DNA from: Gemmatimonadota bacterium
GTDB taxonomy: Bacteria > Gemmatimonadota > Gemmatimonadetes > Longimicrobiales > Gaopeijiaceae
Assembly (NCBI GenBank): GCA_009838975.1
Contig: VXQO01000108.1
Coordinates: 1 to 48,003 of the forward strand
Reading direction: 5' to 3'
DNA: 48,003 nucleotides
A program made the translations under genes and the position numbers. Under the pieces are notes generated by a model. It was not told the DNA's origin and searched no databases. It saw only the letters and a list, made by a program, of their open reading frames with translations. This document shows, piece after piece, positions 12,856-28,613 of the stretch (position 1 is the stretch's first letter; every line of letters starts with the position of its first letter).

Positions 12856-13800
12856 TCAATCGGCCAGGGGTGGCCCGCAAAGAGGCAGGTCATTGTCGCC
12901 GTTGGCTTCGCGCGACTCCACGGAGAGCCTCCAGCGCACCGCGGTTCCGAACCACCCTGTGCCATCGCCGAAGACGGAGGGCACGCGGACGTCGCCGCTC
13001 AGGTTGATGCGGCCCTCACGGATCCAGTTGGTCCAGTTCAGGTCGACCGCCCCCAAGGCGATGTCTGCGACGGCGCCTTCCGGGAGACCTGTACGCAGTT
13101 CGCCCGCCAAGTCCGGATCGGTCACCTCGAGCACCGCAAGCAGTCCTCGGGGAAAGGCCACTTCGGACAGGTCATTTCCGATAAGCACCGTCGTCCAGGA
13201 CACGCGGTCGTCCACCTCCATCTCGCCCACTCCCCCGACCCCCAATTCGGCCAGGTACGCAGCCGCCCCTTCAACCGGAGCCCACTTGAAGCGGTAGTTG
13301 GTGTCAGGCGACAGACGGCAGCGCCCGTCCTCAAGAGCGAGGTCCGAGGCGGAGAATGTGCCCGGCATCCGACTGGTCCCGTAGAGCACACCGCCGTCGG
13401 GCAGAACCACCTCCAGAGACAGCATCTCACCCGGGTCAAACGGAGACAAAGGGCTGCCTCCCCGGTAGCAGGCACCGAAGAAATCCCTGTCCACGCAGTT
13501 GGGTACCGGATCCATCTCCTCGGACAGCTGCATCGACTGCCCGGACTCGCCAGTCACCCGGATCGACGCACCGTGCACAGGATGGGGGTGTCCGCGGTCG
13601 GGATAGCGAGTGGCAATTGCCAGGATGTGCGCGTGTCCGGGCGCAGGGTGGGTCGGGTCAACCGTGAGAACCGCCGTCGCCTCGACGACCATCACGTCCG
13701 GCACGGGAACCACGACTTCAACATTGGCCAGATCGCAACCCACACAGGCAAGCAATGCCGCGAGAGGGACCCCAACGGTCCCGGCGAAACGATCCGACAT
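12856..13800 (-). CDS. DUF4249-like lipoprotein, partner of the TonB receptor
   Basis: A 314-residue predicted lipoprotein: hydrophobic leader and lipobox LLACVGC (Cys about residue 22). The mature part begins with beta-strand sequence (VVVPVPDVMVVEATAVLTVD), followed by GASIRVTGESGQ and a proline/glycine-rich Ig-like fold. This arrangement resembles DUF4249 lipoproteins, which often follow TonB-dependent receptors in Bacteroidota and relatives, but the match is by layout and weak motifs only. ATG 13800 overlaps the TonB receptor stop by one base (TGATG), so it is the last gene of the sigma-FecR-receptor operon and probably acts at the outer membrane with that receptor. Function unknown. Confidence 0.65.
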   Translation of the reverse strand: MSDRFAGTVGVPLAALLACVGCDLANVEVVVPVPDVMVVEATAVLTVDPTHPAPGHAHILAIATRYPDRGHPHPVHGASIRVTGESGQSMQLSEEMDPVPNCVDRDFFGACYRGGSPLSPFDPGEMLSLEVVLPDGGVLYGTSRMPGTFSASDLALEDGRCRLSPDTNYRFKWAPVEGAAAYLAELGVGGVGEMEVDDRVSWTTVLIGNDLSEVAFPRGLLAVLEVTDPDLAGELRTGLPEGAVADIALGAVDLNWTNWIREGRINLSGDVRVPSVFGDGTGWFGTAVRWRLSVESREANGDNDLPLCGPPLAD

Positions 13801-16598
13801 CAGAAGGACACCTCCACTCCGATTGTGGGCAGCAATGGACTCATCGAGACACCGTTCAGAACGGTCCTGTCGGTTCGGTAGGCAAGCGAGTAGTACAGCA
13901 CATTCTTCCGGTTGTAGACGTTGATCACGTGCAGATATGGGGTTATGCGGCCCCATCCCTTTTCCCAGGTTCTGCGGAAGCTCACGTCCAGACGGTGATT
14001 GACGGGATACCGCTCTCCGTTTCTGGGACCCAGGAGGACAACCGACCTGTCGAACGGCTCGGCCGTCAGATCCATCAGCTCGTGCCGAGTGACGTGGTAG
14101 TCGCGGAGGGGCAGCGTGTAGGGAAGCCCGGTTCCGAGGTTCCAGCGCAGCCCGCCCGTGACCGCCCAGGGGAGTGCATGACGAATCACCAGGTCCACCT
14201 CCAGGCGCCGGTCGAAGTCTGCGGGATGTTGGACCGTTCGTGCTGCATTGGGCCCCGCTCCGTCACCGGGAAGCCTCCGGTCTGCCTTCAGGAGAGAGAC
14301 CGAGAGCCATCCGGTGGTCAGGCCGGCGGTCTTTCGCAACAGGAAGTCCGCTCCATATGCCCGTCCGTCGCCGACGAACAGGTCGTCGGCCGGGTCAGCG
14401 GGATGGTCGCCCCAATTTCGGGCGACCAGGCCGTCCTGGGTCCGGTAGTATGCCTCCAACGAAGTGAACCAAATGTCGGTTGTACCGAGCCATCCCTCCA
14501 GCCCCGCCTGGACCTGATCCGAGATCAGTGGCGGGGCCTGCTGGCCGGATAGTACCCAGGCATCCAGGCCGAACGGAATCTGTTCGTCCCGTACCGAATG
14601 CAGGAACTGGGTGTAGCGACCTCCCGCCGCACGCACTGCCCATCGCCCACCGCCCACGAAGCGCTTCGCTGCGATGCGCGGTGAAACGGTTACGGTGCTC
14701 GGAGATCCTTTCGGCCGCCAGTGGTCCACACGCACGCCACCCTCAAACACCCAGGTCGCATTCGGTGTCCAGTCGAGTTGCGTGTAGGCCGCCGTCCCCA
14801 ACCCCGTTCCATCCCCGACGGGGAACGGTTCGGGGCTTCCGCCCGTCGCGAGATTCTCGTACTTGGACCAAGTTGACTCGATGCCGGACTTCCACCGTGT
14901 GTTCCGCCCCGGGTGCCGCTCAAGGCTGGCTGCAATGGACGAGCGGCTGATGCCTGTGCCAAACCCTGCTTCCGACGCGTCCGAGAACTCGAAGTATGCA
15001 TCGGAGCTCGAAAGGGAACCGCCTACCTCCAGCGCACCGCCGTCCCCGAGGAGGCGGGTCCAGGAAGCGCCCGCGGCCGCGCTACCCCAGCTCCAAACGA
15101 TCTCGGGAGCACGAGAATCCAACTCCGGCCACGTATCGTTGAGGCTCGCCAAGCTTGCCACGTCCAGAACATCCCTGCTGAGGTAGCCCGTAGCCTTGAC
15201 CCGATCGCCACGTCGCGTCCACCCCTCGAATGCGGCCTGGAAGTCCTGCAGATGATACGGGAACGCCCCCTCAGAGAAGGGCTCGATCAGCGCATCGAGG
15301 TAGCTGCGGCGAGCGGATGCCCTCCAGCGCCCACTAGCCAGGCCCAGACGGTTTTTCAGGCCTTCCGGCAATCCGCCCCGAACGGCGGCTCGCGACGCAA
15401 GCAGACTTAGGCCCGCGTCGACGCCGAACTCTTCGTCGCCCGGATCCGATTCGATCCGAAGCACTGAAGAGACCCTGCCCCCGTACTCGGCGGGGAACCC
15501 TCCCAGTTGCAACTCTGCACGTCCGACCATGTCGGCGTTGAATGCCGAAAACAGTCCCAGTGTATGGAACGGACTGAAGATAGGAATGCCGTCGAGCAGG
15601 ATTAGATTCTGATCCGCGGATCCCCCGCGCACGTTGAACGCGGCGCCGAAATCCGACATCCGAGTCACACCCGGAAGCACGTCAACCGACTTGATCGGAT
15701 CCGCTTCCGCGATTCCGGGAATCGCCTTGAGTTCAGCGCGGTTCAACTCCTGGACGGTCGCGCCTACCGACCGCTCGAACCGGGTCAGACGCCGGCTGCG
15801 CTCACCCTCAACCTGCAGGCCTCCCAACGCCACGGCCTCTTCGGTGAGCCGAATGGCCACCTGGAGGTCGTCGCCCGGGGCCACGGCAATGGTCTCTTCG
15901 TGGAGCCGATACCCGATCCGGTCAACCGAAAGCTCGTAGTCGCCCGCTGCCAACTCGTGGAAGGCGAAATAGCCCAGCCGGTCGGTGCCGGTGATGTGCC
16001 CTCGCGTTGGGTCCCCCGCAGGCGTCAGGCGGACCGTGGCATCCTCGATGGGAACCGCGACCTCGGAGCGCACGCGGCCGCGCAACAGGCCATCGGGCGG
16101 CGTGCTTCCCGCCCTGGGTACGACGACCACCTGCGACCCGAGTTCGGCGTATCCGAGGTCGGTGTCGGCGAGGAGGTGGTCGAGTGTCTTCGCCAGGTTC
16201 AGCCCAACGCAGTCACAGTCGACGCGCACGCCGGCCGGAAGCAGGCTCGGGCTGAAGGCGATCTGGACGGTCGACCGCTCGGCCAGCCGGACGAGGGCTT
16301 CGCCGAGTGGGACGCTCTCGATGGACAGCATTGAGATGGTGGCCAAAAGGGTGCCCGGGTCGGGGTCCACGCCGGTTTCGCCCCTCAGTGCGGCCAGGAC
16401 CTGCGTGTCCTGTGCGGAGAGCGCCGCGGGGGCGAGCGTGGAGGGCGCCGCAGCGATGCCCACGGGGAGCAGGAGGGTGAGCGCGTTGCGAGCGGCAAGG
16501 CGCGATTCCGTGGCCTGGCGCGAACCGTGGGCCGCGAGGAACCGCCCCACTCTCCGCACGCGCCGCAGCGTTCGGGTACTCCGGCGTGCCCGCCTCAC
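13800..16598 (-). CDS. TonB-dependent outer-membrane receptor with STN signalling domain (FecA-like)
   Basis: A 932-residue receptor. After a signal segment (LTLLLPVGIAAAP to LSAQ) comes an STN domain (SIESVPLGEALVRLAERS through LLADTDLGYAELG), then a carboxypeptidase-regulatory-like beta-sandwich (LRGRVRSEVAVPIEDA), a plug domain (VDVLPGVTRMSDFG, FNVRGGSADQNLILLDG) and a long beta-barrel. STN domains pass ligand occupancy to a FecR-type regulator in the periplasm, which agrees with the FecR gene upstream. GTG 16598 overlaps the FecR stop as GTGA and fixes the start; the open frame continues far upstream through FecR and the sigma gene but that part is a shadow. Substrate is unknown. Confidence 0.9.
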   Translation of the reverse strand: MRRARRSTRTLRRVRRVGRFLAAHGSRQATESRLAARNALTLLLPVGIAAAPSTLAPAALSAQDTQVLAALRGETGVDPDPGTLLATISMLSIESVPLGEALVRLAERSTVQIAFSPSLLPAGVRVDCDCVGLNLAKTLDHLLADTDLGYAELGSQVVVVPRAGSTPPDGLLRGRVRSEVAVPIEDATVRLTPAGDPTRGHITGTDRLGYFAFHELAAGDYELSVDRIGYRLHEETIAVAPGDDLQVAIRLTEEAVALGGLQVEGERSRRLTRFERSVGATVQELNRAELKAIPGIAEADPIKSVDVLPGVTRMSDFGAAFNVRGGSADQNLILLDGIPIFSPFHTLGLFSAFNADMVGRAELQLGGFPAEYGGRVSSVLRIESDPGDEEFGVDAGLSLLASRAAVRGGLPEGLKNRLGLASGRWRASARRSYLDALIEPFSEGAFPYHLQDFQAAFEGWTRRGDRVKATGYLSRDVLDVASLASLNDTWPELDSRAPEIVWSWGSAAAGASWTRLLGDGGALEVGGSLSSSDAYFEFSDASEAGFGTGISRSSIAASLERHPGRNTRWKSGIESTWSKYENLATGGSPEPFPVGDGTGLGTAAYTQLDWTPNATWVFEGGVRVDHWRPKGSPSTVTVSPRIAAKRFVGGGRWAVRAAGGRYTQFLHSVRDEQIPFGLDAWVLSGQQAPPLISDQVQAGLEGWLGTTDIWFTSLEAYYRTQDGLVARNWGDHPADPADDLFVGDGRAYGADFLLRKTAGLTTGWLSVSLLKADRRLPGDGAGPNAARTVQHPADFDRRLEVDLVIRHALPWAVTGGLRWNLGTGLPYTLPLRDYHVTRHELMDLTAEPFDRSVVLLGPRNGERYPVNHRLDVSFRRTWEKGWGRITPYLHVINVYNRKNVLYYSLAYRTDRTVLNGVSMSPLLPTIGVEVSF

Positions 16599-17608
16599 GA
16601 GGCCGCTCCGCGATCGGCGGACTCGATCCTTACTACACCTGCGTCGATGCTGCAGCGGGCGTCGATCACGCCGCACACGACCGTCATGACCTCCGACAGC
16701 GACTTCGATTCGAACCACATGGTGAGGGTTCGGTCCAGGAGCGCGGTGTCGGCGACCACCACATCGGTGCCGTAGTGCTCCTCGACCTCGTTCATCGCGG
16801 CGTCCAGCGGAGTGTCGTGGAAGATGAGGAAACCATCCATCCAGCCAGCCACGGTCTCCATCGGCGCGGCGGCTTCGATCGGCGACGGCACCCCGCGCAA
16901 CAGGCTGGTGGCCTGCCCCGCTCCGACCTGCACCTCGTGGTCCGGCCCGGCCAGGGCGACGCGCCCTTCGACCACCGTCACGGCGAGCTCGTCGGTGTGG
17001 GCCGCGAGGTGGAAACGTGTGCCCAGCACGCGCGCGGTCCCTGCGTCGGCGACGATGGTGAACGGGCGCGCCTCGTCGGTTGCTACGGCGAAGAAGGCCT
17101 GGCCCTGGAAGGTGGCTGTGCGAGCCGACGGGTCTGCCCATGTGGTCAGGCGGCTGTCGGGACCCAGTCGGATCACCGTGCCGTCCGCCAGGCGCACCAG
17201 CTCGGTTTCTCCAGGGCCGGTCGCGAAGTCCTGGAGAACGGGCGCGCTCCCGGGGCCCCCGTTGGAACCGCCGACGAAGAACTGGAACACCATCGAGGCC
17301 GCCAGGGCCACGACCCCCGCTGCGACGAGGTCGAATCGTCGCCGCGGGCGCGGTAGCCTGAGCCGCCTCCCGAGACGCGCCACCCCCGAACCAGCCCTTC
17401 GCGCCTCGGCCCGCCAGATCACCTCCTCGGCGGCCGGTACATCGCCGGGCACGATCCGGCGGTCGGCCATCCGCCCGGCCTCGACCAGGCGCCTGAGTTC
17501 GGCCAGCTCGCGTTCGCGCTCCGCCGAGCCGCTCAACCACTCTGCCACCGTCACGCTCTCCTCTTCCGTCGTCTGCCTGCGCAGATGCCGGAGCAGCAAT
17601 TCGTACAT
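16595..17608 (-). CDS. FecR-family anti-sigma factor / sigma regulator
   Basis: A 337-residue inner-membrane regulator. The N-terminal cytosolic part (MYELLLRHLRRQTTEEE onward) would hold the sigma factor; one transmembrane helix (about residues 94-112, VAAGVVALAASMVFQFFVG) follows a basic stretch; the periplasmic FecR domain shows FATGPGETELVRLADGT, RTATFQGQAFFAVA and GTRFHLAAH. A C-terminal STN-like segment (FHDTPLDAAMNEVEEHYG) follows. It begins directly after the sigma stop and overlaps the receptor start by 4 nt. The set sigma-FecR-receptor is the classical cell-surface signalling arrangement. Confidence 0.9.
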   Translation of the reverse strand: MYELLLRHLRRQTTEEESVTVAEWLSGSAERERELAELRRLVEAGRMADRRIVPGDVPAAEEVIWRAEARRAGSGVARLGRRLRLPRPRRRFDLVAAGVVALAASMVFQFFVGGSNGGPGSAPVLQDFATGPGETELVRLADGTVIRLGPDSRLTTWADPSARTATFQGQAFFAVATDEARPFTIVADAGTARVLGTRFHLAAHTDELAVTVVEGRVALAGPDHEVQVGAGQATSLLRGVPSPIEAAAPMETVAGWMDGFLIFHDTPLDAAMNEVEEHYGTDVVVADTALLDRTLTMWFESKSLSEVMTVVCGVIDARCSIDAGVVRIESADRGAAS

Positions 17609-18199
17609 CTAGTCCTCCTTGATCGCTCGCCGGACGCTCCTCAGCGCGGCGCTCATCTGGTTCGCCACCGTCTGCACCGAGATGTCCAGCACAGCCGCCG
17701 CCTCCGCGTGGCTCAGCCCGCGTTGGAAGACGAGCTGGAACACCTCGCGGCGGCGGTCCGGCAACGACGCGACGGCCGCTTCGAACGCATCCGCCAGCAC
17801 CTTCGCGTCCAGTTCCTCGGCAGGGGTGGCGGGCCGCGGCGCATCGACGAGCCGCTGGCGTTCCGCCCACCGCCGCCGCACCCCCTGCTTCCGCTTCTCG
17901 TCGATCACCAGGTGCCGCACGATCCTGTACAGGTAGGCGCGCGCGGATCCGCGGGGCCGCCAGCCCCGCCTCCGCTCCCACACCTGGATGAACGCTTCCT
18001 GCACGACGTCGCGGGCCAGCTCCACGTCGCCCAGCTGGCGCGCCGCATAGCGCACGAGCTCCTCCCAGCAGAGGCTCATGAGGCGACCGAGCGCACGTGA
18101 AGACCCGCCCTTGATCGCGGCCATGAGCCGGTCGAGCCGGTCGTCGCCCGTGGCGATCCGGGTGTCGTCGGTTTCTCGCATCAGTTGAAGGCTTCGCAT
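17609..18199 (-). CDS. ECF RNA polymerase sigma factor (FecI-like)
   Basis: A 196-residue extracytoplasmic-function sigma factor. Region 2 is visible as YAARQLGDVELARDVVQEAF with FIQVWERRRGW and YLYRIVRHLVIDEKRK; region 4 as LPDRRREVFQLVFQRGLSHA with VLDISVQTVANQMSAALR, a helix-turn-helix. It would direct transcription of its own receptor operon when the receptor is occupied. I use ATG 18199, which has GGAG five bases upstream; the longer frame begins with TTG at 18220. Its stop adjoins the FecR ATG with no gap. Confidence 0.9.
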   Translation of the reverse strand: MRSLQLMRETDDTRIATGDDRLDRLMAAIKGGSSRALGRLMSLCWEELVRYAARQLGDVELARDVVQEAFIQVWERRRGWRPRGSARAYLYRIVRHLVIDEKRKQGVRRRWAERQRLVDAPRPATPAEELDAKVLADAFEAAVASLPDRRREVFQLVFQRGLSHAEAAAVLDISVQTVANQMSAALRSVRRAIKED

Positions 18200-18345: not shown

Positions 18346-20034
18346 ATGAAGACCGCTATAGGCAAAGCCCTGCCCGCCGCGCTCGCCGCCGGCGCCGTCC
18401 TCCTCGCCGCGGCCTGCACCGACGCCGATCCCCCCGTCGACACCTACCCCTTCGACATCCTCATCACCGACGCCCGCGTGATCGACGGAACCGGCGGGCC
18501 GCCCGCAGACGCGGACGTCGGAGTGCGCGGCGACCGCATCATGGCCGTGGGCGACCTATCCGGCCGCGAGGCCGCCCGCTCCATCGACGCCGCCGGCCGC
18601 GTGGTCGCCCCGGGCTTCGTCGACATGATGGGCCAGGCCAGCCTCGTCCTCATCACCGATCCGCCAAGCGCCGAGAGCAAGCTGCGCCAGGGCATCACCA
18701 CGTACCTCTCCGGCGAGGGAAGCTCGGCCGCGCCGCAGAGCGAGGCCACGCTGAGCAACCCGCCCGTGATCGACGGCGACACGCTGCGCTGGCGCCGCTA
18801 CTCCGAGTACTTCGCGATCATGGAGCGCTACGGCATCCCCATCAACGTGGTCCACGACGTCGGCCTGACCCAGGTGCGGCGCGTGGTGCTCGGCAACGAG
18901 GATATCGCGCCTACGCCCGAGCAGCTGGAGCAGATGAAGGCGTTGGTAAGAGAGGGGATGGAGGACGGCGCGGTCGGCGTGTCCACGTCCCTGATCTATC
19001 CGCCCGCGATCTACGCGTCGACGGAGGAATTGATCGCCCTGAGCGCGGTGGCCGGCGAGTACGGTGGCGTCTACTTCACGCACATGAGGAACGAGAGCCA
19101 CGCGGTCCTCGAAGCCATCCGCGAAGCGCTGACCATCGGCGAAGGCGCCGGCGTGCCCGTCCACATCTACCACCTCAAGGCGGCCGGCCAGCGCAACTGG
19201 CCCCTCATGGACGAGGCCCTCGCGCTCATCGACTCGGCCCGCACCGCCGGCATGGACGTCACGGCCGACATCTATCCCTACATCCGCAACGGCATCGGCC
19301 TCGGCTCGTTCCTGCACCCGCGCCACTACGCGCGCGGCACCGGGACCTTCCTGGCCACGCTCGGCGACCCCGACCTGCGGGCCCGGCTGCGCGAAGAGGT
19401 CGAGACCGACCCCGACTGGGAGAACTGGTATCAGCACGTCGGCATGGACTGGAACAACGTGCTGATCGTCTCGGCGCCCGCTTCCGTCGACCCCGGTGTC
19501 GTCAACCGCTCCGTCGCGGAAGCGGCCGAGGTCCTCGGCACCGACCCGTGGAACGCCTTCTTCGACCTCGTCCAGGCGGGCGGCGTCAGCGTGAACCCGC
19601 TCAGCATGAACGAGGAGCAGAAGTGGGCCGCGTTCAGGGCGCCCTTCGTGATGATCGACACCGACGCCTCACCGGTGAACCCGGCCTCGGTGTCGAGCAC
19701 GCACCCCCGCGCCTTCGGGGCATTCCCCCGCGTGATCGCAAAGTACGTGATGGAGGACGGCGTGATCACCCTGGAGGAGGCCGTGCGCAGAATGACTTCG
19801 CTGGCCGCGCGCCGCCTGGGGATGCAAGATCGTGGCACTGTCGAGGCAGGGATGGCCGCCGACCTGGTGGTCTTCGACCCGGGACGCCTGCGGGATCGCG
19901 CCGAATTCGGTGCGAACGCGACGCTGCAATCCGAGGGTGTGGACTACCTCTTCGTGAATGGCGAACTGGTCATCGACGACGGCGAACTGACGGATGCGAA
20001 GCCGGGGAGGCTGCTGAGGCGAACGGACCGGTAG
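18346..20034 (+). CDS. Lipoprotein amidohydrolase, N-acyl-D-amino-acid deacylase-like, altered metal site
   Basis: A 562-residue amidohydrolase-superfamily protein with a lipobox leader (LLAAACTD, Cys24), so it is probably anchored in a membrane facing the periplasm. Family motifs are FDILITDARVIDGTGGPP, GVSTSLIYPPAIYASTEELI, YFTHMRNES, HIYHLKAAG and the C-terminal GTVEAGMAADLVVFDPG, which fit the D-aminoacylase group. The strand-1 HxH metal motif is replaced: residues 93-97 read DMMGQ where D-aminoacylase has DVHTH-type sequence, and the metal-binding cysteine of GNCG appears as GEGS. Aspartate in MIDTDAS and the later histidines remain. It may be a subfamily with a single metal, or inactive. 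ATG 18346 has GGAG upstream. Divergent from the sigma operon. Confidence 0.82.
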   Translation: MKTAIGKALPAALAAGAVLLAAACTDADPPVDTYPFDILITDARVIDGTGGPPADADVGVRGDRIMAVGDLSGREAARSIDAAGRVVAPGFVDMMGQASLVLITDPPSAESKLRQGITTYLSGEGSSAAPQSEATLSNPPVIDGDTLRWRRYSEYFAIMERYGIPINVVHDVGLTQVRRVVLGNEDIAPTPEQLEQMKALVREGMEDGAVGVSTSLIYPPAIYASTEELIALSAVAGEYGGVYFTHMRNESHAVLEAIREALTIGEGAGVPVHIYHLKAAGQRNWPLMDEALALIDSARTAGMDVTADIYPYIRNGIGLGSFLHPRHYARGTGTFLATLGDPDLRARLREEVETDPDWENWYQHVGMDWNNVLIVSAPASVDPGVVNRSVAEAAEVLGTDPWNAFFDLVQAGGVSVNPLSMNEEQKWAAFRAPFVMIDTDASPVNPASVSSTHPRAFGAFPRVIAKYVMEDGVITLEEAVRRMTSLAARRLGMQDRGTVEAGMAADLVVFDPGRLRDRAEFGANATLQSEGVDYLFVNGELVIDDGELTDAKPGRLLRRTDR

Positions 20035-20056: not shown

Positions 20057-20278
20057 CTAAAGCTCCCGAACTCGGGCGATGAACTCCGCGGCCGTCGCGC
20101 ACTCGATGATGGCCAGCGCGATCCCTCGAGTCCGATCCGAATCCGACGGCCCGGTCAGCACGCGGGACAGTTCCGCAACCGCTTCTGGACCGAACTTCTG
20201 GAGCACCAACTGGCGCAGGAGCAACCGGCGGCCTTCGCGACGGTTTTCGGCGAGCCAGGTCTCTTCGTGTCGGATCAT
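20057..20278 (-). CDS. Possible surviving intragenic small protein of the Rpn remnant
   Basis: In-frame ATG at 20278 (MIRHEETWLAEN) is preceded by GGGGGGAGGAAAACG, a strong Shine-Dalgarno match with 6-nt spacing. The product would be 73 residues, ending in ARVREL. It corresponds to the internal start at 5250 of the intact copy. If translated it could still neutralise the intact nuclease. Expression is inference. Confidence 0.45.
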   Translation of the reverse strand: MIRHEETWLAENRREGRRLLLRQLVLQKFGPEAVAELSRVLTGPSDSDRTRGIALAIIECATAAEFIARVREL

Positions 20279-20674
20279 CGTTTTCCTCCCCCCGGGCAGT
20301 AGGCGTGCACCGGGTTCAGCTGCCGGGATCGGCAACCAGGAATCTGTCTGCTGTCTCAGTGCGTCGAACCCGCGAACAATGCTGCTGTCGCCGGACCCGC
20401 GGGCCTTCCGCCAGAGTTCGACCAGCCGGACCGCGTCTTCGGCCCAGCGGGCGCTTTCCCACTCGGCCAGCACTGCGAACCAGTTGCCGGGGGGCAGATT
20501 CGAGAACTCCGGCGCCTTCAGGTCGGCCAGAATATATCCGTTGTAGATGACGATCGGTATCACGATCGGCGGCGCCCCCTCGGGCCCGGTGTCCTCCGTG
20601 ACATCCGCTTCGCTCAGGATCAGGTTGACGTATTCGTAGACTCGAAAGGCCATGTTGTTCACCGGCCTGGACAA
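20057..20674 (-). pseudogene. Remnant of a second Rpn-family nuclease gene, catalytic core deleted
   Basis: Aligns by eye with the Rpn protein at 4503-5531 but starts within it: NNMAFRVYEYVNLIL matches SNMALRVREYVGLML, so the family N-terminus, the catalytic Asp and the E-x-Q motif are all missing. A second deletion joins PIVIYNG directly to YILADLKA, removing about 34 residues. The rest (WESARWAEDA, SSIVRGFDALRQQ, MIRHEETWLAENRREGRR, FGPEAVAELS) is intact and open to the stop. There is no ATG at the 5' end, only TTG at 20674, and the reading frame reaches a stop within the adjacent repeat. The loss of the nuclease with retention of an open C-terminal half fits decay of a toxin-antitoxin gene from the toxin side. 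Confidence 0.8.
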
Positions 20675-20697: not shown

Positions 20698-20736
20698 AAG
20701 TAATGTCTACATGACATTATGTAATGTTGATATTAC
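20698..20736 (+). repeat. AT-rich palindromic repeat, copy 2
   Basis: AAGTAATGT, CTACA and then CATGACATTATGTAATG (20710-20726), the last being the copy 1 palindrome with one change in the right arm. It is followed by a second inverted repeat GTAAT...ATTAC (20721-20736). It lies directly upstream of the Rpn remnant. Confidence 0.75.
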
Positions 20737-20781: not shown

Positions 20782-22140
20782 CTATCCGTCCGCCCTGCCG
20801 TACCGCCAAATCCAATACGCCACCACCCCCGCCCCGATCACGCCGAAGCTGAACAGCGTCGACCCCGGCGCCCCGACCAGGGCGTTCGCCAGCATCGCGA
20901 AGGACGCCAGCAGGAACACGCCCGGCACCCACGGATAGCCAAGCACGCGGTACGGTCTGGGGTGGTCGGGCCGCGTGTGCCGCAGCCGGAAGACCCCCCA
21001 CACGGCCAGGATGTAGAACGGCCAGAGCCCCAGGATGAACGTCTGCACGAGTTCGGAGAAGGTCCTGAGCGACACGTACCCGACGCCCAGGATCGTGACC
21101 AGGGCGATCGCCACGGCGGGCGTGCCCCAGGTGGGGTGGATGCGTCCGACGCGCCGGAGGAAGAGGCCGTCCTCGGCGAGGGCGTAGAAGACTCGCGGGC
21201 CGCCGAGCAGCGTGGCGTTCAGGGCGCCGAAGGTGGAGACGACGACCAGTCCCGCCACGATCGAGGCCCCGGCCGGGCCGAAGATGCGGGTGGCCGCGTC
21301 CGACGCGACGTGTTCGGAGACCGCCATCTCCCCGACCGGGATGACCCACAGGTAGGCGGCGTTCACCAGCAGGTAGACCGCGGCGACGACCAGCGAGCCG
21401 CCGATCAGCGCGCGCGGGAGGTTGCGCTCGGGGTCCTTGACCTCGCCGGCCGCGTAGAGCAGTTCGCCCCAGCCGTCGTAGGCCCACAGCACGGCGATGA
21501 GGGCGATCCCTGCCCCGGTCCACGAAGCCGGCGCGAACCGCGGAGCCGCAGCCAGCGCTCCGGCGCCGCCGTCCCCGAAGACGAAGATCGCGACCGAGAG
21601 GCCGACGATGGCCAGCACCTTCGCCCATGTGCTCACGTTCTGGACGGCGGCGCTCCACCGGACCGAGCGGGCATTGGTGGCCCCGAGCACGACGATGGCC
21701 GCCGCGGCGACCACACGCACGCCGGTCCCCGACAGCGGGACCAGCGTGTCGACGTAGGCCGCGAAGATGAGCGCGATGCCGCCGATCACCGCGGGCTGGA
21801 TGAGGAGCAGCCGCGTCCATCCGAAGACGAACGCGGGCATCGGGCCCCACGCTTCGCGCAGGTAGACGTAGACACCGCCGGCCCGCGGGAACATGGCAGC
21901 CAGTTCCGACATGCTGAGTGCGGCGCAGAGGGTGATCGCCGAGCCCGCAAGCCAGAGGAGCGCGATCGCGCCCACCGTGCCCGCCTCCGCGGCGATCTCC
22001 GCAGGCACACCGAAAATGCCGCTTCCTATGATCGCACCAACCAGGATGGCGCCTGCACTCCAGACCTCTAACTCCCTCCTCAGTCCACCGGAGTTTGCGG
22101 GTGGCGCTTCACCGTCTGCGCCACCGACGACGCCGGTCAC
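20782..22140 (-). CDS. APC-superfamily amino acid permease
   Basis: A 452-residue inner-membrane transporter with about twelve hydrophobic helices. The N-terminal motif GAIIGSGIFGVPAEIA is the substrate-binding G(S/T)G signature of APC amino acid permeases; MFPRAGGVYVYLREAWG and the later WAYDGWGELLYAAGEVKDPE are also typical, the latter close to LAT-type permeases. GTG 22140 overlaps the stop of the upstream amidinotransferase-like gene (GTGA), making it the last of five genes in this operon. It could import or exchange the amino acid used or made by that enzyme. The exact substrate is not readable from sequence. Confidence 0.88.
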   Translation of the reverse strand: MTGVVGGADGEAPPANSGGLRRELEVWSAGAILVGAIIGSGIFGVPAEIAAEAGTVGAIALLWLAGSAITLCAALSMSELAAMFPRAGGVYVYLREAWGPMPAFVFGWTRLLLIQPAVIGGIALIFAAYVDTLVPLSGTGVRVVAAAAIVVLGATNARSVRWSAAVQNVSTWAKVLAIVGLSVAIFVFGDGGAGALAAAPRFAPASWTGAGIALIAVLWAYDGWGELLYAAGEVKDPERNLPRALIGGSLVVAAVYLLVNAAYLWVIPVGEMAVSEHVASDAATRIFGPAGASIVAGLVVVSTFGALNATLLGGPRVFYALAEDGLFLRRVGRIHPTWGTPAVAIALVTILGVGYVSLRTFSELVQTFILGLWPFYILAVWGVFRLRHTRPDHPRPYRVLGYPWVPGVFLLASFAMLANALVGAPGSTLFSFGVIGAGVVAYWIWRYGRADG

Positions 22141-23108
22141 GCGCCGGCAACCCGGTCCCGGGTCACGACCCCGCTGAGGCAGCCGATTCCGCCTGCGCAC
22201 TTGTGGAGTTCGCCGAGTTCGACGGTGACGCACTCCACGCCGGCCGTCTCGTAGGCGGCGCGGGTCTGCGGGCAGCGCTCGGGCATGAGGACGCGGCGTG
22301 GGCCGAGGGTCACGATGTTGTGGCCGAAGTCGCTCACCATCTCGCCGTCGTCCGGGAAGAAGCGGACCTGGTAGCCGTGGGCGCGGAGCAGTTCGAGGGC
22401 GGTCCAGGGGATGCGGCCGGCGCGTGCGAAGGCCAGGTCGCGGCCGGGGAAGCGGACTTCGCCCATGAGATGCATGGAGGTGTGGGGGAGGTCGACCACG
22501 TGCGTTTCCACCCCGATCTCGGCGAGGGTTGCGGCCACCTGCGCGGCGCCCTCCGTGTTGGTGCGGAGTCCGCGGCCGATCATCGCAACCTCCGGGGCCA
22601 GCCAGCAGAGGTCGGCGCCTTCGAAGGTGCCGTGGCCTCCGACGCTGCGGAGGATCGGCACGCCGCGGTCGGCAAGGCGGCGGGCGACCCAGCGCTCTTC
22701 GCCGGCGCGCACGGTCGATGCCGGGCGGCCCACGACGGCGCCGGAGGGGGTCATCACGAAGAGGTCGGCGCAGAACATCTGGTTGGGACGCGGCTCGCCC
22801 GGGTCGACATACACGACCTCGACTCCGTTGGCGCGGTAGGCATCGGCCAGGGCATCGTGCTGCGCGGTTGCGAGCGCGGGGTCCGGTGTTTCCAGCAGCA
22901 GGTGCTCGTCGGGGTCGGCGAGGCCGAAGAGTTCCGGGCCAGGGCGGTGCAGGATTACCGTCCGCAGGGGGGCGTATTCGCTGTCGATTCCGCAACGTGC
23001 CCAGACGGAGCCGATCTCGTCGGCCAGGGAGGCGTGGCGGGCGGACCAGTTGGGACCACCGTAGGCGGCGGCTCCGGCGTCGGGGTGCGGGGCGCCCGCG
23101 TCGCTCAT
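22137..23108 (-). CDS. Amidinotransferase/DDAH-type guanidino-group hydrolase
   Basis: A 323-residue member of the guanidino-group-modifying superfamily (arginine deiminase, dimethylarginine dimethylaminohydrolase, amidinotransferases). Signs are YAPLRTVILHRPGPEL at the N-terminus, NQMFCADLFVMTPSGAVVG, GGHGTFEGADLCWL with MIGRGLRTN (the N-terminal half of the active site), an internal DLPHTSMHLMGEVRF with candidate catalytic His, and a C-terminal Cys310 in GGIGCLSG in the place of the catalytic cysteine. Such enzymes split or transfer the guanidino group of arginine, methylarginines or agmatine-like compounds. ATG 23108 overlaps the NCS2 permease stop by 4 nt. DDAH versus arginine deiminase versus amidinotransferase is not settled. 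Confidence 0.8.
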   Translation of the reverse strand: MSDAGAPHPDAGAAAYGGPNWSARHASLADEIGSVWARCGIDSEYAPLRTVILHRPGPELFGLADPDEHLLLETPDPALATAQHDALADAYRANGVEVVYVDPGEPRPNQMFCADLFVMTPSGAVVGRPASTVRAGEERWVARRLADRGVPILRSVGGHGTFEGADLCWLAPEVAMIGRGLRTNTEGAAQVAATLAEIGVETHVVDLPHTSMHLMGEVRFPGRDLAFARAGRIPWTALELLRAHGYQVRFFPDDGEMVSDFGHNIVTLGPRRVLMPERCPQTRAAYETAGVECVTVELGELHKCAGGIGCLSGVVTRDRVAGA

Positions 23109-24850
23109 GCGGCTCCGACCGGGTCCACCCGGACGGTCACGATATCCGTATCGTGGTACTTCTGGTGCCGCACCGAGGTGGCGATGTGCCGCAGGAGACG
23201 GATCGAGAAGTCCTGTTCGACGGGCACCTCGGTCGCGCTTCCGCCGATGAAGGCCATGCGATCTTCTATGTTGCCCTCCCCAGCGGCCGCAAGGAACTCG
23301 AGTTCGGCACCGCCCCCCTCGGCCCGGGCCGTCACCCGCAGGCGTCGCGTCCCCAGGGTGTCGTCCTCGGTCATCTCGTTGAGGAGGACCAGGAGCGTTT
23401 CCTCCGCGGCGAGGCTCATCCGGTGGACCAGGTCCTCACTCAGGCCCGAGCGTGCCCCGAATGTCTCCATGAACCCCTGGATCTTCGGCTGCGCCTCGAC
23501 GTTCAGAGTGGTCTCGATGCGGCGGCGTCTGGGCCCCGACAGCTCCATGAACGCCGACAACAGGATCGCGGTCAGCCCGCCGGAGGTCATTCCGTTCTCC
23601 AGCAGCTGGCCGGCCCAGCTGAAGTACTCCGAGGGGATCTGGCCGCTCTGGAAACCCGCCCCGATCCAGAACGAGACGCCGATGATCGTGGCCTTCCGGT
23701 AGTCGATGCCGTCCTGGGTGACCATCTCCAGGCCGAGCACGAAGAGGATCGCGATCAACACGACGATGTAGGCGCCGACCACCGGGTTGGGGATGGCAAG
23801 CAGTACCGCGGTCGCCTTGGGGAAGAAGGCGAGCGCGATGAAGATCACACCGATGCAGACGCCCACCCGACGGGCGGCGACTCCCGTGATCTCGACGATC
23901 GAGACGCTGTTCGAGTAGGTCGTGTTGGGGACGGTGGCGAGAAGCCCCGAGAGCAGGTTCCCCACTCCGTCGGCCGCCACCGCGCCCTGCACCGCGCGGA
24001 AGTCGGTGGCCCGGCGCTTCCGCCAGGACACCCGCTGGATGGCCATCCCGTCGCCGATGGTCTCGATGGCGCCGACGAGCGTGACGAAGATGAAGGCCGG
24101 CAACATCGCCCAGAACGCGGGGCTCAGGCTCAGGTCGAACCCGGGCCACCCGGCCGCCGGCACCCCGAACCACTGTGCTTCGGCCACGATGCCCATGTCG
24201 TAGATCCCGTATCCGGCCGCGACCAGACAGCCTCCGACGGCTCCGATCACCGAGCCCCACAGCCGCAGGGCTCCCCTCGCCCGCAGCACGATCACGATGG
24301 TAATCACGATGGTCGCCAGCGCGGTCAACGGGGCTGCCGCGGGGTCGGCGCCCTCGGGCGCCAGGAAGAGCAGGTCGAAGCCGATCGGCATCACCGTGAC
24401 CGCGATCAGCATGATGACCGTGCCCGCCACGGTGGGCGTGATGACGCGCCTGAGCAGCGACAGCCGTGACGCGATCAGGAACTGGAAGAGCGACGACGCC
24501 ACGATGAGTGTGGCCAGGAGCGCGGGGCCGCCCCGTTCGAGTGCCGCCACGGACACCGCAATGAAGACCCCGGACGTCCCCATGAGCAGGATGTACCCTG
24601 CCCCGATGCGTCCGCCGATCCGTTTCGCCTGGATCAGCGTCGAGATCCCGCACACGATCAGGACCGCGAACGCCGCCCACGTCAGGTAGGTCTCGCTGCC
24701 GCCCCCGGCGCGGACCACGATCGCCACCGTGATGACGATCCCGGCGATGTTGAGCAGGACGTACTGGAAGGCAAGCCCGAACGATACCGGGTATGCGGGG
24801 GACTCATCGGCCTGGAAACGAAGGTCCTGGCGAGTGTCGCGAGCGGTCAT
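23105..24850 (-). CDS. NCS2-type permease fused to a C-terminal GHKL/HATPase-like domain, copy B
   Basis: A 581-residue protein. Residues about 20-430 are a solute-carrier-23-like nucleobase transporter (FQYVLLNIAGIVITVAIVV, VGAIETIGDGMAIQ, ATVPNTTYSNSVSIVEITG, SFWIGAGFQSGQIP). The NAT signature is altered: the usual QNxG appears as SNSV. Residues about 440-581 are cytosolic and look like an anti-sigma/RsbW-type GHKL domain: HRMSLAAEETLLVLLNE as a helix with the N-box position, then a hydrophobic strand and DFSIRLLRHIATSVRHQKYH leading to a final TVRVDP strand. A clear G1 box is not visible, so ATP binding is doubtful. ATG 24850 overlaps the aminotransferase stop by 4 nt. Substrate unknown; xanthine or uracil is only the family default. 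Confidence 0.85.
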   Translation of the reverse strand: MTARDTRQDLRFQADESPAYPVSFGLAFQYVLLNIAGIVITVAIVVRAGGGSETYLTWAAFAVLIVCGISTLIQAKRIGGRIGAGYILLMGTSGVFIAVSVAALERGGPALLATLIVASSLFQFLIASRLSLLRRVITPTVAGTVIMLIAVTVMPIGFDLLFLAPEGADPAAAPLTALATIVITIVIVLRARGALRLWGSVIGAVGGCLVAAGYGIYDMGIVAEAQWFGVPAAGWPGFDLSLSPAFWAMLPAFIFVTLVGAIETIGDGMAIQRVSWRKRRATDFRAVQGAVAADGVGNLLSGLLATVPNTTYSNSVSIVEITGVAARRVGVCIGVIFIALAFFPKATAVLLAIPNPVVGAYIVVLIAILFVLGLEMVTQDGIDYRKATIIGVSFWIGAGFQSGQIPSEYFSWAGQLLENGMTSGGLTAILLSAFMELSGPRRRRIETTLNVEAQPKIQGFMETFGARSGLSEDLVHRMSLAAEETLLVLLNEMTEDDTLGTRRLRVTARAEGGGAELEFLAAAGEGNIEDRMAFIGGSATEVPVEQDFSIRLLRHIATSVRHQKYHDTDIVTVRVDPVGAA

Positions 24851-26166
24851 GGCGTCGGTCGGCCCTCGATCGTGGCCGCGTGCCGCACGAGGAAGGACTC
24901 GAACTCGGCAATCAGCCGGTCGCAGTCCTCGTCGTCGTGGGCGAGGGAAACCGAGATGAAGCCGCGGCGGGCGATCCAGTTCCCTGCGAGCAGCATCTCG
25001 AGGTGGAAGAGATCGCGCGCGGCCTGCGACGTCGCGGCCAGGTCGGCGTGACGGCGGATCGGCGCGCGCTGGAAGTGCACGTTCATGATCGACCCCCGGC
25101 CGGTCACCTGCGCGGGCGCGTCGAGCCGGGCCGCGACGGCGTTCAGCGCGTCACGCAGCGCGTCGCCGCGGCGGTTGAGGCCGCGCACCGCCGCGGGTGT
25201 GAGCACGTCGCGCAGCCCGGCGAGGCCCGCGGCCATCGTGAGAACGTTGTTGTTGTGCGTGCCCGCGTGGCTGAAGTGATCCGGGCGGCGCGGGTCGAAC
25301 CGGTCCATGAGGTCCGCTCGGCCGCCGAACGCCCCAAAGGCGGCGCCGCCCCCCAGGTGCTTGCCGAAGGTCGTTAGGTCGGCGTGGATGCCCAGCACCT
25401 GCTGCAGTCCGCCGGGCGCAAGGCGCGACGTCTGCACCTCGTCAAAGACGAGCAACGCGCCACTCCGCTCGGTCGCGTCCCGGAGCGCGCCCAGAAACGC
25501 GTGTGTCCCGGGGACGCACCCGCCGCCTCCGAGCATGGGCTCGACGAGCACGCACGCGATTTCGCCGGCGAGCTGGTCTATCAGCCGCGCCGACTCCACG
25601 TCGTTGTAGTGGCAGACGATCCACGGGAACGGAAGGTTGAGTCGCCGGTCCGCGCCCGTGAAGCTCAAAGGCCCGCCGTGGTATGCGCCATCGAACACGA
25701 GCACGCCGTCGCGTCCGGTGACGGCACGCGCGAGGCTCGCCGCCATCAGGTTCGCCTCCGTCCCCGAGTTCGTGAACCTCACGCGTTCGACTGAAGGAAA
25801 GCGCTCGCAGATGAGCTCCGCGAACTGCTGCTGGTTCGGGGTGGGGCCGCCGAGCGTGAGGCCGTTCCTCGCGGCCGTGGTGATCGCAGCCTGGATGAGC
25901 GGGTTCGAGTGCCCGTAGAGGCCCGCCGTATGGTCGTTCAGGAAGTCGACGTACTCGTGCCCGTCGAGGTCGTGGAGCCGGGCGCCCTCGCCCCGCACGA
26001 TCGTCACCGGGAAGGGCGCGTAGTGGTTTACCGTGCGGGTGTCGGCCCCGGGCAGAAAACCCGTCGACCGCTCGAAGCTGGCCTGGCTCAGCGGATTCGC
26101 CGCGGTGTACCGGGCAGCCGCCTCGGCTGCGAGGTCCTCCAGGGTTGGCGCCATTACCGGAGTCAT
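24847..26166 (-). CDS. Class III PLP aminotransferase, glutamate-1-semialdehyde aminomutase-like
   Basis: A 439-residue PLP enzyme of the class III (subgroup II) aminotransferases. Seen are TNSGTEANLMAASLARA, the DGAYHG segment, FDEVQTSRLAPGG, and the PLP lysine Lys269 in TTFGKHLGGG. It resembles glutamate-1-semialdehyde 2,1-aminomutase but the operon (two permeases, a guanidino enzyme, an amino acid permease) points to catabolism rather than haem synthesis. AGXT2, a class III enzyme of animals, transaminates methylarginines, so a guanidino amino acid is a possible substrate here. The start at ATG 26166 is chosen over TTG 26202; another ATG lies at 26154. It is 66 bp after the upstream permease stop and overlaps the downstream permease by 4 nt. 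Confidence 0.83.
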   Translation of the reverse strand: MTPVMAPTLEDLAAEAAARYTAANPLSQASFERSTGFLPGADTRTVNHYAPFPVTIVRGEGARLHDLDGHEYVDFLNDHTAGLYGHSNPLIQAAITTAARNGLTLGGPTPNQQQFAELICERFPSVERVRFTNSGTEANLMAASLARAVTGRDGVLVFDGAYHGGPLSFTGADRRLNLPFPWIVCHYNDVESARLIDQLAGEIACVLVEPMLGGGGCVPGTHAFLGALRDATERSGALLVFDEVQTSRLAPGGLQQVLGIHADLTTFGKHLGGGAAFGAFGGRADLMDRFDPRRPDHFSHAGTHNNNVLTMAAGLAGLRDVLTPAAVRGLNRRGDALRDALNAVAARLDAPAQVTGRGSIMNVHFQRAPIRRHADLAATSQAARDLFHLEMLLAGNWIARRGFISVSLAHDDEDCDRLIAEFESFLVRHAATIEGRPTP

Positions 26167-26232
26167 GGTGGGATAATCGGTGCCGAACGGCGCGCATCGC
26201 AACCCGGGGACATGGCGCCCGGGTCCCGGCGG

Positions 26233-27993
26233 CTACGCCGTCACGCCCCCCGGGTCCACCCGCACCGTCACCACATCGATGTCCTCGTACTTGTGGTGCT
26301 GCACCGAGGTCGCCAGGTGTCGCAGCAGCCTCAGCGAGAACTCGTGCTCCTCGGCGGCGTCGACAGCGTGCGTGCCGACCACGGCCAGATGATCCTCGAT
26401 GTTGCCCTCGCCGCCCGCGGCCAGGAACTCCAGCTCCGCGCCTCCGGACTCGGTCCGCGCGGTGAGGCGCAACCGGCGCCCGCCGGAACCGGGAGCCTCG
26501 TCCCCCTCCGCCTCCCCGATCAGCAGCAACAGCGTCTCCTCGGCCGCGTGCGCCAGCCGGTTGGCCATCCCGCTCCCCAGGCCGCGGCGCCCGGCGAAGT
26601 CCTCCAGGAACCCGTGAATCTTCGGCAGCGACTCCACCTGCAGCTCCGTCTGCATGCGCACGCGCCTGGGCCCCGTCAGCTCCATGAACGCGGTCAGAAC
26701 GAGCGCCGTCAGCCCCCCCGACGTCATGCCGTTGCTGAGCAGCTGCTGCAGGAAGGGCGCCAGCCCGTCGGTGGGGATCTGGCCGCTCTGGCAGCCGACG
26801 CCGACCCAGAACGAAAACCCGACGACCGTGGCCTTGCGGTAGTCCATGCCGTCCTGCAGCACGATCCTGGTACCCAGCATGAACAGCACGGCGATGATCA
26901 CCATGGCGTACGCGCCGAGCACCGGATCCGGGATGACCAGGAGCACCTGCGTCACCTTCGGGAGGAAGGCCAGCAGGCAGAAGATCAGGCCGATGCATAC
27001 CCCAACCCGCCGCGACGCGATCCCCGTGATCTCGACGACCGAGACGCTGCTCGAGTAGGTCGTGTTGGGCACCGTGGCGAAGAGCCCCGAGAGCAGGTTG
27101 CCGAACCCGTCGGCGGCCACGGCCCCCTGCACCGCCCGGTAGTCGGTCGCCCGCCGCTCGCGCCACGAGACCTTCTGGATCCCCACCGCGTCGCCGATCG
27201 TCTCGATCGCCCCCACCAGCGTCACGAAGGTGTACGCGGGGAGGATCGCCCAGAACGCCGGCCCGAAGTCGAACCCAAGCCCCGGCCAGCCCGCGACCGG
27301 GACGCCGACCCACATGGCCTCGCGGACCGGTCCGCCGTCCAGCAGCCCGAAGGACCACGCTGCCACGACCCCGGCGACGATCCCGATCAGCGGGCCCCAC
27401 AGCCGCACCGGGCCACTGAACTTCAGCATTACCGCCAGCGTCACCACCAGCGTCGCCATCACGGTGACGGGTGCGGCCAGCGGCGCGCTCCCCTCGGGCA
27501 CGTTGTCCATGAAGTCGAAGAGGAACGGCATCACGTTCACCGCGATCAGCATGATCACGGTGCCCGCCACCGTCGGCGTCAGGATCCGCCGCAGAATCGC
27601 CAGCCGCCCCGCCAGCAGGAACTGGAAGAGCGACGACACGATGATCAGCGTGGCGAGCAGCCCCGGTCCCCCCTGCTGGAGCGCCGCCACCGACACCGCG
27701 ATGAACGCCCCCGACGTCCCCATCATCAGCACGTATCCGGACCCGAGCCGTCCCACGCGCCGCGCCTGCAGAATGGTGGCCACGCCGCTTACCAGGAGCG
27801 CGCCGAAAGCCCCCCAGGCCAGGTACCCCGCGCTGCTCTCCGCGCTGCGCAGCACGATCGCGACGGTAAGCACAACACCCCCTATCGCCAGCACCGAGTA
27901 CTGAAGCGCCAGCCCCGCGGCCAGCGGCCAGGGCGGCCTCTCGTCGGGTTCGTAGCGGACGCCGTGTGCGGTTTGGCCTGGCTCGGATGCCAT
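26233..27993 (-). CDS. NCS2-type permease fused to a C-terminal GHKL/HATPase-like domain, copy A
   Basis: A 586-residue paralogue of the gene at 23105-24850, with the same two-part build. Membrane part: LALQYSVLAIGGVVLTVAIV, TVAGTVIMLIAV, VGAIETIGDAVGIQ, PNTTYSSSVSVVEITG, CQSGQIP. Cytosolic part: ANRLAHAAEETLLLLIGE, GAELEFLAAGGEGNIED and EFSLRLLRHLATSVQHHKYE. The two copies share most of these segments nearly word for word, so they are a duplication separated by the aminotransferase. ATG 27993 has GAGAGG upstream. It is the first gene of the five-gene operon, and the 181-bp gap to the divergent rhodanese gene must hold the promoter; a minus-strand TTGACA at 28112-28107 is the best -35 candidate but lacks a well-spaced -10. 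Confidence 0.85.
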   Translation of the reverse strand: MASEPGQTAHGVRYEPDERPPWPLAAGLALQYSVLAIGGVVLTVAIVLRSAESSAGYLAWGAFGALLVSGVATILQARRVGRLGSGYVLMMGTSGAFIAVSVAALQQGGPGLLATLIIVSSLFQFLLAGRLAILRRILTPTVAGTVIMLIAVNVMPFLFDFMDNVPEGSAPLAAPVTVMATLVVTLAVMLKFSGPVRLWGPLIGIVAGVVAAWSFGLLDGGPVREAMWVGVPVAGWPGLGFDFGPAFWAILPAYTFVTLVGAIETIGDAVGIQKVSWRERRATDYRAVQGAVAADGFGNLLSGLFATVPNTTYSSSVSVVEITGIASRRVGVCIGLIFCLLAFLPKVTQVLLVIPDPVLGAYAMVIIAVLFMLGTRIVLQDGMDYRKATVVGFSFWVGVGCQSGQIPTDGLAPFLQQLLSNGMTSGGLTALVLTAFMELTGPRRVRMQTELQVESLPKIHGFLEDFAGRRGLGSGMANRLAHAAEETLLLLIGEAEGDEAPGSGGRRLRLTARTESGGAELEFLAAGGEGNIEDHLAVVGTHAVDAAEEHEFSLRLLRHLATSVQHHKYEDIDVVTVRVDPGGVTA

Positions 27994-28174: not shown

Positions 28175-28570
28175 GTGAACATCGATCAGCTCAACCACTA
28201 CAAGCAGAAGCTGGCCTTCGAAACCGACTCGTGGGACGTCTACGAAGCCCTCAGCCGCAACGAGCCGGTTGTCGTGGTCGACGGCCGGTCCGCCGAAGCC
28301 TACGCGCGCGAACACATTCCCGGAGCCATCAACCTACCCCACCGCGAGATCAGCGCCGAGACCACGGAAGCGCTCGACAAGGCCAGGCTGTACGTCTGCT
28401 ACTGCGACGGGATCGGCTGCAACGCGTCAACAAAGACCGCACTGAAGCTCCTCACGCTTGGCTTCCAGGTCCGTGAGCTCATGGGTGGTCTGGATTGGTG
28501 GAAGCGCGACGGCTACGCCACGGCTGGCGAAACCGCGAGGGTCGGCACCGAGATCGTGTGCGGCTGCTGA
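28175..28570 (+). CDS. Rhodanese-domain sulfurtransferase
   Basis: A 131-residue single-domain rhodanese. The N-terminal VVVVDGRSAEAYAREHIPGA and INLPHREIS are the family's CH2A motifs; the active-site loop is CYCDGIGCNASTKTA, where the last cysteine before NAS is the likely persulfide carrier. It moves sulfane sulfur or reduces thiosulfate-type donors in the cytoplasm. The start is GTG 28175; no strong ribosome binding site precedes it. It is divergent from the permease operon and followed by the third AT-rich repeat. Confidence 0.85.
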   Translation: MNIDQLNHYKQKLAFETDSWDVYEALSRNEPVVVVDGRSAEAYAREHIPGAINLPHREISAETTEALDKARLYVCYCDGIGCNASTKTALKLLTLGFQVRELMGGLDWWKRDGYATAGETARVGTEIVCGC

Positions 28571-28582
28571 GGGGATGTTCAT

Positions 28583-28613
28583 GTAATCTGTACATGACAT
28601 TTTGTCATGCGTA
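28583..28613 (+). repeat. AT-rich palindromic repeat, copy 3
   Basis: GTAATCTGTACA followed by the palindrome CATGACATTTTGTCATG (28593-28609) and GCGTA as in copy 1. It begins 13 bp after the rhodanese stop, directly before a gene fragment. Confidence 0.75.

Follow-up and report, generated by a model that had tools for sequence, protein, structure and literature searches.

Do five tightly packed genes on one strand serve a single pathway, or can such an arrangement bring together genes of separate origin? The question is raised by a locus in a Gemmatimonadota bacterium (assembly GCA_009838975.1, 4.5 Mb), of which we analysed one contig (VXQO01000108.1, positions 1 to 48,003; 48,003 nucleotides, hereafter the window). 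The locus encodes two NCS2 permeases with an unusual C-terminal tail (NCS2a and NCS2b), a class III aminotransferase, a hydrolase of the arginine deiminase (ADI)/DDAH superfamily and an APC-superfamily permease. A first-pass annotation had read the five genes as one operon for uptake and breakdown of a methylated or guanidino amino compound, recalling the two mammalian routes for asymmetric dimethylarginine (ADMA), through DDAH and AGXT2. The locus is instead composite, its two modules having been joined recently. We consider it reasonably probable that, in three species, it combines two co-oriented modules with the functions proposed below, module A comprising the NCS2 permeases and the aminotransferase, and module B the hydrolase and the APC permease. 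The most interesting content of the locus is the tailed permease family and a third type of hydrolase subfamily, not a methyl-arginine pathway. In gene order, the five genes are as follows.

26233 to 27993, minus strand: NCS2a, an NCS2-family permease with a C-terminal pseudo-GHKL domain (domain 26236-26694; Pfam PF00860, Xan_ur_permease, 164 bits against a cut-off of 27; tail aligned with 42 homologues).
24847 to 26166, minus strand: class III aminotransferase of the beta-amino-acid transaminase family (phmmer against 4ao9; below the HemL cut-offs).
23105 to 24850, minus strand: NCS2b, a second NCS2 permease with a C-terminal pseudo-GHKL domain (domain 23108-23557; Xan_ur_permease, 159 bits against the same cut-off; AlphaFold2 domain model).
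22137 to 23108, minus strand: Cys hydrolase of the DDAH/arginine deiminase superfamily, a distinct subfamily with an NQMFCAD motif (predicted C310, H213, E163, R134, R182).
20782 to 22140, minus strand: APC-superfamily amino acid permease, LAT/SLC7-like (AA_permease_2, 207 bits; PDB matches to system xc-, b0,+ and LAT1).

The open reading frames were present where the first-pass annotation had placed them, and gene calling by codon usage, trained on relatives, returned the same set. Its superfamily calls were likewise borne out by Pfam and NCBIfam, which gave Xan_ur_permease twice, Aminotran_3, the ADI/DDAH superfamily and AA_permease_2. Two more species of the genus have orthologues, 92-99% identical, with the order unchanged, so these are real genes. 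The tight spacing was also correctly seen, although there are four junctions and not five: a gap of 66 nt is followed by three 4-nt overlaps, the last of which joins the hydrolase stop to the GTG start of the APC permease gene. No sigma-70-like site was found in a consensus promoter scan, and a terminator scan gave a single chance-level match, inside the aminotransferase gene. Among named records, the nearest that share the locus are metagenome-assembled genomes of Gemmatimonadetes, and the isolate names suggest that the source bacteria may be sponge-associated.

The history of the locus was followed in 59 related genomes, 23 of them in the genus of the window. The aminotransferase (at least 82% identity; range 82-92%) occurs in 8 of the 59, all within the genus, and the hydrolase (at least 58%) in six, of which three are congeners; the two are found together in only three genomes. 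Close NCS2b orthologues (at least 83%) are present in at least 17 genomes. Five congeners have the aminotransferase and the NCS2 genes without the hydrolase or the APC permease, and eight have the two NCS2 genes in direct tandem with nothing between them, while one genome (G001) is left with a 136-residue remnant of the aminotransferase. Two neighbouring genes mark the limits of the region.

18346 to 20034, plus strand: amidohydrolase (Pfam Amidohydro_3), directly after NCS2b in congeners without the hydrolase/APC pair and thus the downstream edge of the insertion.
28175 to 28570, plus strand: rhodanese-domain gene (Pfam PF00581), which in many congeners lies next to NCS2a on its upstream side.

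From NCS2b to the amidohydrolase, the distance is 163 nt in genome G005 and 63 nt in G009; in the window it is 3071 nt, holding the hydrolase, the APC permease and a 205-residue open reading frame, and window positions 23095-20020 have no counterpart in G009 and G005. In four other genomes (G016, G001, G019 and G033) the same site is filled by other genes. On the strength of this empty site and of the other genes found there in congeners, the hydrolase/APC pair was inserted at a variable site behind NCS2b; less simply, it was lost several times. Among the fillers, a HipA/HipB-like pair was recognized by eye at two loci (L131:6248-7850 and L132:5474-7079). The 205-residue frame between the APC permease and the amidohydrolase (20057-20674) looks by eye like a truncated gene of nuclease or transposase type, and it has no Pfam, NCBIfam or PADLOC match.

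Module B can be followed beyond the genus. The APC permease gene comes immediately after the hydrolase gene and overlaps it by 4 nt in the genus of the window, in most of the loci L023-L030 and in L006, the pair being seen in L021, L023-L030 and L006. L023-L030 belong to another genus of the family, with hydrolases 77-82% identical, and L006 (genome G051) to a different family, the pairing extending across an order; outside the genus of the window, no NCS2 or aminotransferase gene adjoins the pair. The gene run in L023-L030 reads ECF sigma factor, FecR, TonB-type receptor, unknown gene, two further genes, hydrolase, APC permease and an AIR-synthase-like gene, and the block of the first four precedes the pair in L023, L024, L025, L028 and L030. 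A block of the same kind lies in the window beyond the amidohydrolase, on the same strand as the five genes.

12856 to 18181, minus strand: ECF sigma factor, FecR, TonB-type receptor and unknown gene (Pfam).

The AIR-synthase-like gene, a relative of SelD, ThiL and HypE (L023:12300-13328 and relatives), overlaps the APC permease gene by 4 nt in most of these runs. The hydrolase/APC pair is the best-supported functional unit of the locus, and our literature search returned no described bacterial DDAH operon with an amino acid permease. The pair is conserved; from sequence, we infer a function for which a guanidino or amidino amino acid would be a reasonable substrate.

What, then, does the hydrolase act upon? 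By sequence and profile searches, it falls between PaDDAH and arginine deiminase. Its AlphaFold2 model (predicted local distance difference test score, pLDDT, 91.6; alignment of 52 sequences) has the fold of PaDDAH 3rhy, the best PDB match (Foldseek E 1e-19, TMt 0.88), and of 1rxx (4e-19), and shares that fold with the nitrohydrolase NnhA and with AGAT. We aligned 64 relatives from Gemmatimonadota, Alpha- and Gammaproteobacteria, Anaerolineales, Actinomycetota and one contig labelled Oceanobacillus. The Cys-His-Glu triad is kept almost throughout (C310 in 62 of 64, H213 and E163 each in 63), and the equivalents of PaDDAH R85 and R132, R134 and R182, are present in all 64. In PaDDAH and PaADI, two arginines bind the carboxylate of the amino acid and acidic residues bind the guanidinium, D60 and E65 being the acidic residues of the methylguanidino pocket of PaDDAH. 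At the positions of PaDDAH D60, E65 and K164, every relative has N109, A114 and M215; the last is also the position of PaADI Asp280, so that MHLD of 1rxx aligns with MHLM. Because Asn, Ala and Met replace the acidic DDAH/ADI residues in all 64 relatives, the hydrolase is, by its sequence, a separate subfamily within the ADI/DDAH superfamily. Neither ADMA nor ordinary arginine is probably its substrate, since the subfamily lacks the acidic guanidinium-binding residues of both enzymes. By analogy with PaDDAH and PaADI, R134 and R182 would hold the carboxylate and the missing acids would mean loss of the guanidinium site. The enzyme resembles PaDDAH (3rhy/1h70) and human DDAH-1 in fold, triad and both carboxylate arginines; it differs from them in those three substitutions and in an additional 70 N-terminal residues like those of arginine deiminase. 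With arginine deiminase (PaADI, 1rxx, 2abr) it shares the fold core and the triad, and the two align in the N-terminal segment, in the middle and in C-terminal stretches. The earlier DDAH-like assignment was therefore sound as to superfamily and triad, but not as to the acidic pocket residues or the curated DDAH cut-offs, below which the protein falls by a wide distance (101.7 against 340 bits for the best model, 69.7 against 450 and 47.9 against 300).

It might still be argued that the hydrolase is a short isofunctional variant of arginine deiminase or DDAH that makes citrulline, the locus being ordinary arginine catabolic cargo. The hydrolase profile scores nearly the same against PaADI and PaDDAH (E about 1e-18), and the model fold is equally close to both. 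However, all 64 sequences have Met for ADI Asp280 and Asn and Ala for DDAH Asp60 and Glu65; the protein has 323 residues, not about 410, and scores 60.6 bits against the arcA cut-off of 489.1. No arcB or arcC partner was noticed among the called neighbours, not all of which are annotated. We regard this alternative as unlikely.

Marine Alphaproteobacteria carry the hydrolase subfamily widely, with cultured genera (Thalassobaculum, Nisaea and Oceanibaculum) among them. Relatives of the hydrolase adjoin or lie near arginase-family genes in two loci (L061, L063), and elsewhere near ABC transporters of amino acid (L074) or peptide type (L065), a TRAP transporter with an FAD-dependent oxidoreductase (L055) or aminotransferases (L081); some neighbours, such as recR, dnaX and gyrase/topoisomerase A, are plainly unrelated. 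Hydrolase relatives were also seen by eye downstream of HMG-CoA-lyase-like and CaiB-like CoA-transferase genes in six loci (L049, L054 and L056 from Nisaea, and L036, L048 and L080), with spacings of -4 to 6 nt in Nisaea.

The aminotransferase of module A points in another direction. In phmmer searches, its best structures were the beta-phenylalanine aminotransferase 4ao9 of Variovorax paradoxus (430 bits) and the beta-transaminase 2yku (427 bits), with HemL structures at 223 bits or less. The first-pass annotation had named a HemL identity as what would refute its reading; the candidate was discarded, as the protein scores 266.6 bits against the curated HemL cut-off of 527.3 and its closest relatives are beta-transaminases. 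For the transaminase of Variovorax paradoxus (VpAT), a motif has been proposed of R41 (binding the substrate carboxylate), V43 and the aromatic motif E75-Y76 (PMC9850050). The aminotransferase matches 4ao9 and 2yku over its full length and keeps the equivalents of R41 and V43; it differs from them in having D-H in place of E75-Y76, as do most of the orthologues examined, with D-Y in L143. From these residues and matches, a beta-amino acid is the likely amino donor.

Together, these observations bear on the reading with which we began, that all five genes form one system for a guanidino compound, methylated arginine or another, in which hydrolase and aminotransferase work in parallel, like DDAH and AGXT2, or in succession. 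The tight spacing with its three overlaps, the superfamily of the hydrolase and the order kept in three species all favour it. Yet, the modules lie apart in most genomes: the aminotransferase and NCS2 genes go without the hydrolase/APC pair in five congeners, the pair goes without an aminotransferase or an adjacent NCS2 gene in other genera, and the junction is empty in two congeners. The separate occurrence of the modules and the empty site make one five-gene ADMA pathway unlikely, and the empty site in G005 and G009, its variable fillers and a broken APC permease gene in G013 (below) argue against one ancient five-step system. Furthermore, the ADMA analogy is weak, given that the acidic guanidinium-site residues of DDAH and ADI are replaced in every subfamily member and the DDAH cut-offs are far off, and the aminotransferase is a beta-amino-acid transaminase with His for the pocket residue Y76. 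Hence, we judge the five-gene system quite improbable. Of the uptake and breakdown proposed earlier, a guanidino or amidino substrate stays reasonable for the hydrolase and the APC permease; methyl-arginine is not predicted and a single pathway is not backed. Improbable too is a series in which the hydrolase and the beta-transaminase would act one after the other on a guanidino or amidino beta-amino acid (e.g. a beta-arginine-like product of the sponge holobiont) imported by the APC or NCS2 permeases, the modules having been joined for that in three species: the co-oriented overlap, the retained R41 and V43 equivalents and the more polar transaminase pocket speak for it, but five of the eight transaminase genomes lack the hydrolase, other hydrolase genera lack the transaminase, and the substrate assignment is itself a prediction.

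The tailed permeases are the most unusual part of the locus. NCS2a and NCS2b are 63% identical, and each ends in a tail of about 150 residues in which the window copies themselves have no Pfam match. The first-pass call of an NCS2-GHKL fusion is nevertheless upheld by the Pfam matches of relatives and the predicted fold, which together link the tail to RsbW. HATPase_c_2 is matched by 26 of 42 aligned tail relatives (best 7e-7). A sequence-profile search of the tail against the PDB gave no match. The NCS2b tail, as modelled with AlphaFold2 (pLDDT 73, from a shallow alignment of four sequences), has the expected order beta-alpha-alpha-beta-beta-alpha-alpha-beta-beta, and the top 16 PDB matches in Foldseek were SpoIIAB, RsbW, UsfX or their complexes (E 8.8e-7 to 2.5e-4), with TM-scores of 0.63-0.72 against the anti-sigma structures. 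The tail differs from these proteins in being joined to a membrane transporter and in lacking the ATP-binding N-box Asn and the Gly-rich motifs: by inspection of 68 aligned tails and two Pseudomonadota members, there is no Asn four residues past the invariant Glu pair and no DxGxG/GxGxG motif. N96, H124 and H131 are invariant in the 42-sequence alignment. The tail was found in 42 of 298 Gemmatimonadota genomes (8 of 119 genera sampled), with up to 12 tailed permeases per genome and 3-12 in the genus of the window, and in 2 of 398 Pseudomonadota genomes sampled around Thalassobaculum fulvum, which is one of these two. Among the matches listed, the tail lies in nearly all cases in a frame long enough for a fused permease.

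The permease domain is like that of the NCS2/NAT permeases UapA, UraA and PbuX, and NCS2b retains the Glu and Asp of UapA in transmembrane helix 8 (TM8). The NAT motif Q-N-x-G contacts the purine in UapA. In contrast to this signature, NCS2b has N314-S315, the tailed permeases having N-S or S-S for Q408-N409, and Q-N is not the common state among 68 sequences. With the purine-binding QN lost and a TM8 Glu that is not constant from one subgroup to the next, the copies probably have different substrates and, as their sequences suggest, need not carry purines. Our literature search returned no description of an NCS2-GHKL fusion. The closest parallel is with the SLC5/STAC histidine kinases CbrA, CrbS and RpuS, in which a transporter is fused to a GHKL-type signalling domain (PMC7096432, PMC9100948, PMC13022988). 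These differ in having an SLC5 and not an SLC23 fold, an active histidine kinase, a STAC domain and a response-regulator partner (PMC7096432, PMC9100948, PMC13022988), where the tailed permeases carry a degenerate RsbW-like domain. The tailed permeases may thus form a transceptor-like family, whose signalling role is conjectural; the architecture and history of module A are observed, and we infer its function from sequence.

In our preferred reading of two joined modules, the APC permease of module B would import an amino acid bearing a guanidino or amidino-like group, which the hydrolase would attack through C310, H213 and E163, with R134 and R182 holding the carboxylate and ammonia or an amine being released. 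Module A would consist of tandem NCS2 permeases, whose SpoIIAB/RsbW-like tails without the ATP motifs would serve as docking or regulatory domains in the manner of a transceptor, with a beta-amino-acid transaminase gene placed between the two NCS2 genes in part of the genus. The modules are probably co-transcribed in the three species. Several points weigh against this reading. The three 4-nt overlaps, one of which bridges both modules, hint at coordinated expression, and the five-gene order persists in three species at 92-99% identity. The APC gene downstream of the hydrolase is interrupted and shortened in G013 (L022), which is among the three species that carry the whole cluster; this means that the pair is not strictly maintained, though an assembly error is possible. 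The tail model is built from four close sequences, the substrates of all five proteins are predictions, and the residue roles are carried over from DDAH and ADI.

A wider proposal is that the tailed NCS2 family are transporter-receptors coupling uptake to partner switching or other regulation, and that the hydrolase, beside DDAH and arginine deiminase, is a third functional branch, acting on an amidino or guanidino substrate not yet described; this we put forward tentatively, as a possibility that is doubtful at present. If true, the permease tail would link transporter and regulatory domain in a new manner, distinct from that of SLC5/STAC kinases and SulP-STAS transporters, and one that has multiplied in apparently sponge-associated bacteria facing many host-derived solutes. 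The substrate of the hydrolase can be sought in cultivable strains, as the subfamily occurs in cultured genera of Alphaproteobacteria. More generally, the locus warns that tight gene spacing alone is no proof of a pathway, as neighbours may have been joined recently.

Some observations on tailed permeases elsewhere may be added. There is no STAS gene in the window that could be a partner. One tailed-permease paralogue in the genome has a STAS gene at about 110 nt, and STAS genes lie near one paralogue subgroup (G000:C118:24837-25685, L146:6398-6745, L149:8262-8609, L153:6234-6578, L147:5403-6065, L148:5682-6335 and L118:4997-5464), followed in some loci by a conserved protein of about 91 residues and a very large protein, possibly a polyketide synthase. 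A STAS partner as a general companion was set aside, being confined to this subgroup (L118, L146-L149, L153). By eye, tailed permeases adjoin TRAP transporter genes in five loci from two phyla (L113, L114, L119, L126 and, in Thalassobaculum, L174) and lie near betaine-type (BCCT) carriers in L127 and L176. A DmdA-like demethylase occurs near tailed permeases in L146 (9735-10892; 395 bits against a cut-off of 410), L149, L150, L151, L153 and L156, making the use of dimethylsulfoniopropionate or methylated amines a possible theme of these loci, and an agmatinase-type gene in L118 (179.4 against a cut-off of 174.3).

Finally, a repeat lies just 3' of the five genes.

20700 to 20736, minus strand: AT-rich palindromic intergenic repeat (5 matches in the window against 0.01 expected).

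The repeat, AATGTMATGTNNNCATTAC, with arms GTAATGT/ACATTAC, is found in the window at 4311-4350, 20700-20736 and 28583-28601. The genome holds 32 copies within 2 mismatches, against 0 for the reversed control, and the repeat is present in 22 of the 23 genomes of the genus, often no more than tens of bases from the end of a gene and sometimes as tandem or back-to-back copies.

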